This document shows, in pieces, positions 24,572 through 26,071 of a DNA stretch of 64,000 bases. The stretch spans positions 62,001 to 126,000 of the forward strand of contig NZ_UCNN01000019.1 in the NCBI RefSeq assembly GCF_900473935.1, read 5' to 3'. The notes under the pieces were generated by a model. The model was not told the DNA's origin and searched no databases. It saw only the letters and a program-made list of their open reading frames with translations. Made by a program: the position numbers and the translations under genes. The DNA is from Synechococcus sp. UW105 (lineage in GTDB: Bacteria > Cyanobacteriota > Cyanobacteriia > PCC-6307 > Cyanobiaceae). Within the stretch, counting starts at the first letter, position 1; every line of letters begins with the position of its first letter.

Positions 24572-24660
24572 GTGAGGAGTTGAGCTCTTCCGTGGAGTGG
24601 AAACAAGGAAACACGCCCACTTGAGTTCACAAAAAGCCCTGCCTTCGGCGGGGCTTTTTT
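24572..24660 (+). ncRNA. yfr2: Yfr2-family small RNA
   Basis: About 89 nt with the marks of the cyanobacterial Yfr2 family. A stem of GAGCTC (24582-24587) with GAGTTC (24623-24628), and above it GTGG with CCAC, presents a loop holding two GGAAACA motifs (24599-24605 and 24607-24613). It ends in an intrinsic terminator, AGCCCTGCC/GGCGGGGCT with a 3-base loop and TTTTTT. Yfr2 RNAs are abundant in picocyanobacteria; their role is not settled. The 5' end carries GTGAGGAG, complementary to a repeated motif of the RNA candidate facing it. It is divergent from the pentapeptide gene. Confidence 0.78.
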
Positions 24661-24693
24661 GTTGCCTTTTGATCCTTTGTTGGATCAAGCCAC

Positions 24694-24764
24694 AAAAAAG
24701 GGGCCTGACGGCCCCCTGGGTGGTGTGAGGAGATCAACTTCGTGTGAGGAGAGTTGATCCACCA
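24694..24764 (-). ncRNA. Yfr1-like small RNA candidate, downstream of folC
   Basis: Read on the minus strand: stem GATCAACT/AGTTGATC (8 perfect bp), a 12-nt loop CTCCTCACACGA, a linker TCCTCACACCACCCA, then terminator GGGGCC-GTCA-GGCCCC and TTTTTT. This is the layout of Yfr1: a hairpin, an unpaired CTCCTCACACC-type segment and a terminator hairpin. Here the motif is doubled, once in the loop and once in the linker. The known Yfr1 gene of picocyanobacteria lies near guaB/trxA, which are not here, so this would be an extra locus. The 5' end is undefined; it could be an independent RNA or be cut from the folC 3' UTR, whose stop lies ~50 bp upstream. Confidence 0.55.
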
Positions 24765-24814
24765 CAGTGGTAGCCCGTTTTGCCAGAGTTTGGTGTTGCT
24801 TTTACTTCGAGTTA

Positions 24815-26071
24815 TCAATTCATTGATGTTCGGCTTGGAGCGAGGCGGCCTTCGTTGATCAGCGCACCCAGCAGATAAAGCGACCCTGCGATGACGGGAT
24901 CAGCCTTCGGCCATCCTTGCTGTTCCAGTCTTTCAAGCACTTTGACAACCGCCTGACTCGAGTCGGGGTTGTTGGGTTGCTCCGGAAGCTCCAGCAGTTG
25001 ACCGGACCAGGTTGGAGTGTCCCTGATCAGCATTGCCCGGGTCCAGCTGCGGTGCCCTGGGACCGGCAGGATCCATGCCTGGTCCTGGGGATGCAGCAAT
25101 GCTCTGAGCATGGCCGGCGCCTGCTTATGCGATTGGATGGCCAGGATCCAAGTGATGCCCTCCTGAGCATGGGGCCAGTGGTGGCGTTCTTGGCTGAGCG
25201 CTTCCGCTGCAGGGGGGTTATGGGCGCCATCGATCAGCACTGCATGGTTGCGCCAGGTCATGGCTTGCAGTCGTCCTGGCCAGTGAGCCGTGGCCAACCC
25301 GTTGCGAATACTGGCGTGATCGAGTTCCCATCCCATGGCCTGGATCTGCTCCAGCACAGCTTTGGCGACGGCCGCATTGCTGCGCTGGACGTGGCCATCC
25401 AGACCAAGGATCCAGTCGCTGCTCAGGGGGGCCACCCAGGACAGCGTTGCTCCGATCTGGGTGCATCGTTGTTGGAGTACGGCGGCGACCTCTGGAGGTT
25501 GGTCTGCGCTGATTACGATGGCGCCCGTTTGGATTGCAGCGGCTTTCTCCTCCGCGATTGCCGTAAGGGTGCCTCCGAGATGTTCACAGTGGTCGAGGCC
25601 GATGGAGGCCACCGCCAGCAAAGGGCGATGCGGATGGGCGGTGGTGGCATCGAGACGCCCACCTAATCCCGCCTCCAGCACCAGCCAGTTGACTTTCTCC
25701 GCCGCGAAGTGCATGAGAGCTGCCGTGATCAGCAGTTCAAAAGGGGTGAGCGCCTCAGCCTTCGTCAGCGGCTGCAGAGCCACCAACTCCTCCCTTAGGC
25801 GGCTGTGGCTGATCTGCTGGTGATCGACCCGGATCCGCTCCGTCCAATCCACCAGATGGGGCGATGTCGTCAGACCGGTGCGGATTCCTGCTGCTACTAG
25901 GCCGCTATGCACAAAGGTGGCAATGGAACCCTTGCCGTTGGTGCCGATGACCTGAACCGCTGGGATTGAGCCACAGGGCTGGTTCAGAGTCTTCAGAGCC
26001 CGGACCATGCGATCGAGGCAAAGGTCCATGCCTCGCTGCTCAAATGGGGGCAGCAGATCGCTGAAGGTCAC
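24815..26071 (-). CDS. folC: Dihydrofolate / folylpolyglutamate synthase
   Basis: Adds L-glutamate to dihydropteroate and folates. Mur-ligase features are VIGTNGKGSIATFV for ATP binding (residues ~42-55), TTSPHLVDWTERI, EAGLGGRLDATTA, SIGLDHCEHLGGT and, in the C-terminal domain, LIDGAHNPPAAEAL. At 418 residues it is full length. It overlaps argD by 4 bp (ATGA), so the two are translationally coupled. A terminator with a T-run lies ~100 bp downstream, at the end of the Yfr1-like candidate. Confidence 0.96.
   Translation of the reverse strand: MTFSDLLPPFEQRGMDLCLDRMVRALKTLNQPCGSIPAVQVIGTNGKGSIATFVHSGLVAAGIRTGLTTSPHLVDWTERIRVDHQQISHSRLREELVALQPLTKAEALTPFELLITAALMHFAAEKVNWLVLEAGLGGRLDATTAHPHRPLLAVASIGLDHCEHLGGTLTAIAEEKAAAIQTGAIVISADQPPEVAAVLQQRCTQIGATLSWVAPLSSDWILGLDGHVQRSNAAVAKAVLEQIQAMGWELDHASIRNGLATAHWPGRLQAMTWRNHAVLIDGAHNPPAAEALSQERHHWPHAQEGITWILAIQSHKQAPAMLRALLHPQDQAWILPVPGHRSWTRAMLIRDTPTWSGQLLELPEQPNNPDSSQAVVKVLERLEQQGWPKADPVIAGSLYLLGALINEGRLAPSRTSMN

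Follow-up and report, generated by a model that had tools for sequence, protein, structure and literature searches.

A candidate Yfr10-type small RNA with two copies of the Yfr1 motif in Synechococcus sp. UW105

We analysed 64,000 nucleotides of DNA from Synechococcus sp. UW105; this whole stretch is called the window in the following. With a probability of about three in four, a locus on its minus strand encodes a free-standing small RNA (sRNA) of approximately 70 nt, which would be a variant of the Yfr10 kind with two CUCCUCACA(C) seeds and would pair with Yfr2 and with mRNAs. This reading is carried by the two seeds themselves, a covarying hairpin, a terminator, the multicopy recurrence of the arrangement across the genus, and the frequent adjacency of a Yfr2 gene.

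Structure of the locus

On the minus strand, positions 24694-24759 contain CTCCTCACAC twice, followed by an intrinsic terminator. The putative RNA (24694..24763) was delimited by means of a covariance model, R1, which is described below; its 5' end at 24763 is assumed on account of a -10-like box which two relatives have. The 5' hairpin (24732..24759), deduced from the fold and from helix covariation across relatives, has a stem of eight perfect pairs between the arms GATCAACT (24759-24752) and AGTTGATC (24739-24732). Its loop, CTCCTCACACGA (24751-24740), presents motif 1 (24742..24751). Motif 2 (24723..24732) lies in the interval between hairpin and terminator, and its first C doubles as the last base of the stem. 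Both copies of CTCCTCACAC are exact, as an earlier note made from the sequence alone had claimed, including the placement of one of them in the loop above the perfect stem. The terminator (24694..24717) comprises a stem of eight pairs (24717-24698) and a T run extending to 24694. These are the only exact copies of CTCCTCACAC in the 64-kb window, for which a mean of 0.27 is expected by chance; two or more copies occurred in 2 of 100 shuffles. The genome as a whole contains seven: one in Yfr1, the two described here, two antisense to a pair of Cyano-1 copies, and a further two inside long open frames.

The 89-nt stretch 24687-24775 folded better than all of 200 shuffled versions (z = -3.52). In the fold predicted for the 70-nt RNA (24763-24694), the 5' GGUG is paired with a CACC which covers the final three bases of motif 2, leaving six bases of this motif (UCCUCA) in a bulge and not in a free linker. 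The earlier note had assigned motif 2 to a single-stranded linker before the terminator; its position and the terminator were confirmed, whereas the free linker gives way to a predicted, partly paired bulge. The predicted probability of being unpaired is 0.14 for base 1 of motif 2, 0.69-0.99 for bases 2-7 and 0.51-0.31 thereafter; for motif 1 the values are between 0.45 and 1.0. The cores of both motifs are predicted to be mostly unpaired. A scan for consensus sigma-70 promoters found none at the locus; therefore, the putative -10 box CTACCACT (24766..24773, minus strand), which was chosen by eye and corresponds to CTAGCACT in the relatives' loci L034 and L015, has to be considered weak.

The upstream neighbour on the same strand is folC (24815..26071; TIGR01499, 264.6 bits with a cut-off of 162.65), in agreement with the location proposed earlier, and the putative RNA begins about 50 bp behind it. 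On the plus strand, a gene for a Yfr2-family sRNA (Rfam Cyano-1, RF01701; 24566..24632, 49.0 bits with a gathering score of 41) with a terminator at 24631..24659, detected by a terminator scan, is arranged tail-to-tail with the doubled-motif RNA; this adjoining gene had been missed in the earlier note. We take Cyano-1 to be the Yfr2 family; its GTGAGGAG, GUGAGGAG, GGAAACAAGGAAACA and GGAAACA stretches agree. The 5' end of the neighbouring Yfr2, GGTGAGGAG, is complementary to the motif, and the genome contains four Cyano-1 matches altogether, with Yfr2 copies at C29:388021 and C19:14974 besides the neighbour. The loci L034 (FolC 92% identical) and L015 (74%) have the same flanks, namely FolC and a pentapeptide-repeat gene, with a convergent Cyano-1 gene also lying between the two. 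This shared synteny indicates that this branch has had the locus for a long time.

Recurrence in the genus and covariation

Of the 31 genus genomes, 22 contain the pattern CTCCTCACA-N4..34-CTCCTCACA, at 33 places in total, and none contains its reversed control. Among 400 genomes of the bacterial family, which include these 31, it occurs in 27; only five of the 369 genomes outside the genus contain it. Judged by these sequence counts, the doubled motif is not noise. It is indeed unusual, as had been suggested, but it is not a peculiarity of one locus, since it characterizes a genus-wide family of loci. According to their stems, these loci were grouped into type A (GCCAA/TTGGC), type B (GCCA/TGGC), type C (GTTGG/CCAAC), type D (GGAAAG/CTTTTC), and type E (GATCAACT/AGTTGATC), to which the window locus, L015 and L034 belong. 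Among the 33 strict members, the distance from one motif start to the next is 17 nt in 23 and 19 nt in 10.

R1 was trained on 19 of the 20 sequences with stem types A, B and D, the omitted one being the type-B locus L037. Training was limited to these types because MAFFT, applied to all types, misaligned the first motif; types C and E were kept outside and used as a test. R1 finds the window locus at 24694-24768 with 38.2 bits (E = 1.6e-6), which is the only match of its own genome at E <= 0.1. At this threshold, 26 of the 31 genus genomes have a match and eight of them have five to seven; at E <= 3.8e-6 the number of genomes is 22. A sample of 151 genomes of the bacterial family gave matches at E <= 0.01 in 16, ten of which are from other genera (best E 7.4e-5). 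Only two of these ten (L246, L247) have CTCCTCAC near the match, in one copy each; the remaining other-genus matches are therefore probably due to chance or to a shared hairpin shape. When the 30 loci L013-L042 were scanned with Rfam, no family reached its gathering score over the doubled-motif RNAs themselves, which is why a covariance model of the doubled-motif family would help annotation.

The retention of the motifs was read in 56 of the 60 R1 matches at E <= 1e-4. CTCCTCACA is exact at the linker place in 52 members, at the loop place in 34 and at both places in 33; the exact loop motif is gone in 22 of the 56, and CTCCTCAC is still in the loop in 39. Nine of the 31 genus genomes lack the exact doubled motif. 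Two of them (G012, G023) possess a single-motif form with the order hairpin TTGGTGAAACACCAA, CTCCTCACAC, terminator; two (G002, G022) have weak R1 matches only, with no CTCCTCAC close by; and for five (G004, G010, G020, G026, G030) the R1 search at E <= 0.1 gave no match, three of these genomes (G020, G026, G030) being 63-85% complete.

In order to assess covariation, we used an alignment of 38 rows (37 distinct), which includes two antisense terminator matches (of L035 and L037). Since the rows were aligned to fit the structure, the following counts are biased: 98.6% of the cells were paired, compared with 82.7% in shuffles; 83 cells were changed on both sides, compared with 20.7; and the covariation score was 0.500, compared with 0.214, none of 500 shuffles being as high in any of these three values. 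Sliding the partners by 1-3 columns reduced the score to at most 0.192. Two measures were less distinctive: both-side changes occurred in eight pairs, a number reached by 8 of 500 shuffles, and the 20 further pair types were reached by 203 of 500. In helix 1, the motif-bearing hairpin, three of the five pairs show both-side changes, and at least three pair types were seen in each of these. When stem arms were exchanged between loci, the mean number of pairs was 4.6, compared with 5.2 in the native combination; this comparison carries no weight, since most loci have similar stems. The conservation of stem and motif among relatives, on which the earlier note had made its proposal depend, was thus found in 22 of 31 genomes, with a helix that covaries.

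Yfr2 genes as neighbours and putative partners

Cyano-1 was detected in all 31 genus genomes at E <= 0.01, at 111 places in total, and above the cut-off in 29 genomes. A Cyano-1 match lies within 1 kb of 43 of the 60 R1 matches (E <= 1e-4); the orientation is divergent in 37 cases, convergent in six and tandem in none. For 32 divergent pairs the distance is within 150 bp, and the ends of the two models are mostly 74-75 bp apart. The other 17 R1 matches fall into five on contigs lacking Cyano-1, seven with a tandem Cyano-1 at 3-9 kb, and five for which it is farther off or, if divergent, at a distance of at least 2.5 kb. The strict doubled places gave a similar picture: 27 of the 33 have Cyano-1 within 700 bp, never on the same strand (divergent at 23 places, convergent at 4), and 22 of these 27 within 160 bp. 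Among the six places without such a neighbour, three are located on two contigs of the draft genome G015, the one in G024 has Cyano-1 at 2.8 kb, and for the type-D places in G003 and G018 a Cyano-1 search of their 3-kb loci (L014, L027) gave no match. The copy numbers of R1 (E <= 1e-3) and Cyano-1 are correlated with a Spearman coefficient of 0.735 for the 31 genomes and 0.71 for the 24 fuller ones, both values being uncorrected for kinship.

Pairing energies were computed for segments containing motif 1 and motif 2, respectively; they exclude the cost of opening structure, and whole-molecule runs of the same program preferred other sites. With this reservation, the values were -22.5/-22.1 and -21.7/-18.3 kcal/mol for the 5' ends of the Yfr2 copies L009 and L011, -13.1/-12.4 kcal/mol for copy L008, and -14.6/-14.6 kcal/mol for the neighbouring Yfr2 (L010). 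As the predicted pairing with the adjacent Yfr2 spans only 8 bp at -14.6 kcal/mol, the best partner lies elsewhere in the genome. A genome-wide search for mRNA sites of the form GTGAGGAG-N3..12-ATG gave 17 matches, some of them overlapping, compared with one in the reversed control. At 12 such loci, which represent 10 distinct sites, a long frame opened at the respective ATG in only two. Given the few long frames and the bias which Shine-Dalgarno sequences introduce into the control, none of these sites is claimed as a target.

Comparison with known RNAs and alternative explanations

In Yfr10 a stem is topped by a loop which holds the Yfr1 motif (PMC6778093), and in Prochlorococcus MED4 the RNAs Yfr10, Yfr12 and Yfr18 directly adjoin Yfr2, Yfr4 and Yfr5 (PMC2518516, PMC6778093). 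In this strain Yfr1, Yfr10 and Yfr18 carry a single copy of the motif each, and Yfr10 has a length of 78 nt (PMC2518516). Prochlorococcus Yfr10 lies upstream of a Yfr2-family gene on the same strand, the adjacency being described for HL-adapted strains (PMC2518516); Yfr10 has also been reported for Synechococcus WH8102 (PMC2518516, PMC6778093). The RNA of the window resembles Yfr10 in that it is small, carries CUCCUCACAC in a loop atop a stem, and is encoded away from guaB/trxA beside a Yfr2-family gene. It differs in having two motif copies instead of the single one of the MED4 RNAs, and in the orientation of its Yfr2 partner, which is convergent here and divergent in most relatives, whereas in Prochlorococcus it follows downstream on the same strand. 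Yfr2/Cyano-1 itself is a separate RNA family, the neighbour and complementary partner of the doubled-motif RNA, and carries the complementary sense of the motif (GUGAGGAG). The earlier note had regarded a second locus with a doubled, partly loop-exposed motif as probably new; a second locus as such is not new, because Yfr10 is a published kind with a loop-borne motif and an adjacent Yfr2 (PMC2518516, PMC6778093). What we did not find in the literature is the doubled motif, maintained genus-wide in multicopy families which are often divergent from Yfr2: neither two motifs in one RNA nor the divergent layout is described in the passages covered of PMC2518516, PMC6778093, PMC2190773, PMC2662882, PMC5069720 and PMC7368042, and the titles and opening abstract lines of other papers on these RNAs gave no hint of a doubling, although an earlier description is possible.

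The locus had originally been proposed to encode a Yfr1-like RNA, and one alternative is that it is a second true Yfr1 gene. It contains the CUCCUCACAC motif, even twice, and shares with Yfr1 the order of hairpin, motif and terminator (PMC2190773), the ultraconserved motif being located between a 5' hairpin and a terminator hairpin. Motif and RNA-like layout could thus be retained from the proposal, but membership in Yfr1 could not: RF01116 gave no match here at E <= 5, and its sole match in the genome at E <= 0.001 is the canonical Yfr1 at C18:38155-38211 (67.8 bits), whose locus (L012) is flanked by GuaB-like and thioredoxin-like (trxA-like) ORFs, as named by eye. The window RNA differs in its extra loop motif and in its location next to folC and Yfr2 instead of guaB/trxA; moreover, the 30 loci L013-L042 gave no Yfr1 match above the gathering score. 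We consider a second Yfr1 very improbable; on the strength of sequence features, the RNA is not Rfam's Yfr1 and fits Yfr10. Somewhat more weight, although still little, is due to the idea that the RNA is the 3' untranslated end of folC, perhaps cut into a 3'UTR-derived sRNA and lacking a promoter of its own. Such an origin is possible because the sigma-70 scan found no promoter; the RNA also starts closely behind folC on the same strand, and folC is the upstream gene at both other type E loci. Against this stands that, apart from L015 and L034, a search with FolC matched none of the loci of the RNA family covered (L013-L042, L164-L213), so that the family is not tied to folC. Furthermore, the distant relative L015 has diverged upstream DNA, yet keeps CTAGCACT and the RNA, and visual inspection of stem types B and C showed -10-like boxes preceded at 16-17 bp by TTGACT or TTGAAT.

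A different question is whether both motifs are in use. The linker copy could be the only working one, as in Yfr1, and the loop copy a lingering duplication without a role. The more frequent retention of the linker motif (52 versus 34 of 56 members) and the single-motif forms with hairpin, motif and terminator in two genus genomes (L217, L243) agree with this explanation, which we nevertheless regard as doubtful. Both copies are exact in 33 of 56 members over diverged stem sequences, and a loop position can be active, because the motif of the published Yfr10 sits in a loop (PMC6778093). The doubled seed, retained over diverged stems in a large part of the genus and with up to seven R1 matches per genome (E <= 0.1), suggests selection on seed number or titration.

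Possible function

To our knowledge, networks in which sRNAs act on sRNAs are few. In marine picocyanobacteria, Yfr1, Yfr2 and Yfr10 form such a network, which is tied to carbon and nitrogen metabolism (PMC6778093). In the same account, Yfr2 pulled down Yfr1 and Yfr10, lifted the repression of a reporter by Yfr1, and kept Yfr1 and Yfr10 off ppa (PMC6778093). From the published Prochlorococcus system we infer the following mechanism for the Yfr10-type RNA with two seeds. Seed 1 would be offered in the 5' hairpin loop and seed 2 between hairpin and terminator. Each seed would pair with the complementary 5' end of Yfr2, which is GUGUGAGGAG in two other copies and GGUGAGGAG in the neighbour, and might also pair with GUGAGGAG-like mRNA sites. 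By analogy with Yfr1/Yfr10 and Yfr2 of Prochlorococcus MED4, for which this was reported, Yfr2 and the doubled-motif RNA would titrate each other, and a second seed would give each molecule a higher binding capacity or apparent affinity.

A bolder version, which we advance tentatively and with less than even confidence, is that of a genus-specific bivalent anti-sRNA. Its two Yfr2 seeds, with starts 17 or 19 nt apart, would let it bind a pair of Yfr2 molecules, or a Yfr2 together with an mRNA. It would have spread along with Yfr2 by duplication of a two-gene cassette, in which the genes are usually divergent, the RNA models are separated by about 75 bp and a promoter region is shared. Due to this shared region, regulator and sponge would rise together.

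Further observations

The five doubled-motif loci outside the genus (L159-L163) are not matched by R1 in any case. In L159 (genus g6), the doubled motif at 1500 has a longer, GC-rich spacer and, by eye, a terminator-like stretch behind it; it may represent a parallel doubling in another genus. The loci L161, L162 and L163 (genus g56) contain at about 1500 three to four repeats of CTCCTCACAAC-like units within an AT-rich spacer, and in L161 and L162 there is a tRNA match at 1660-1748. Inspection by eye revealed no terminator in view behind the doubled motif of L160 and L161-L163; the repeats of L161-L163 are for this reason perhaps a DNA-level feature. A scan of named genomes for the doubled motif gave at least 116 stretches; among the matches listed are Synechococcus sp. 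AG-686-F08, AG-679-C18 and SP2, many unrelated Fischerella repeats, and scattered matches in other phyla. The Fischerella CTCCTCACA-N-CTCCTCACAC matches (L048, L049, L053 and others) were rejected as instances of the same RNA; they look like dispersed repeats.

In the spacer between Yfr2 and the divergent doubled-motif RNA, a perfect palindrome, TGGCACNGTGCCA, is found in L018 and L026 (at 1426) and in L019, L022 and L033 (at 1591). Before the Yfr2 gene of the window it was not found with up to two mismatches; it also occurs immediately upstream of another Yfr2 gene in the same genome (L009, at 1589). The palindrome is a candidate operator. Pairs of copies of the RNA on the same strand, a few hundred bases apart, are present in L016 (1252-1327), L029 (1248-1323), L038 (1119-1194) and L041 (1233-1308); similarly, L039 has two same-strand copies at 825 and 1569, as if a tandem duplication had occurred. 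Finally, the relative's locus L021 contains a match to the Glutamine-II riboswitch at 322-381 (57.1 bits).
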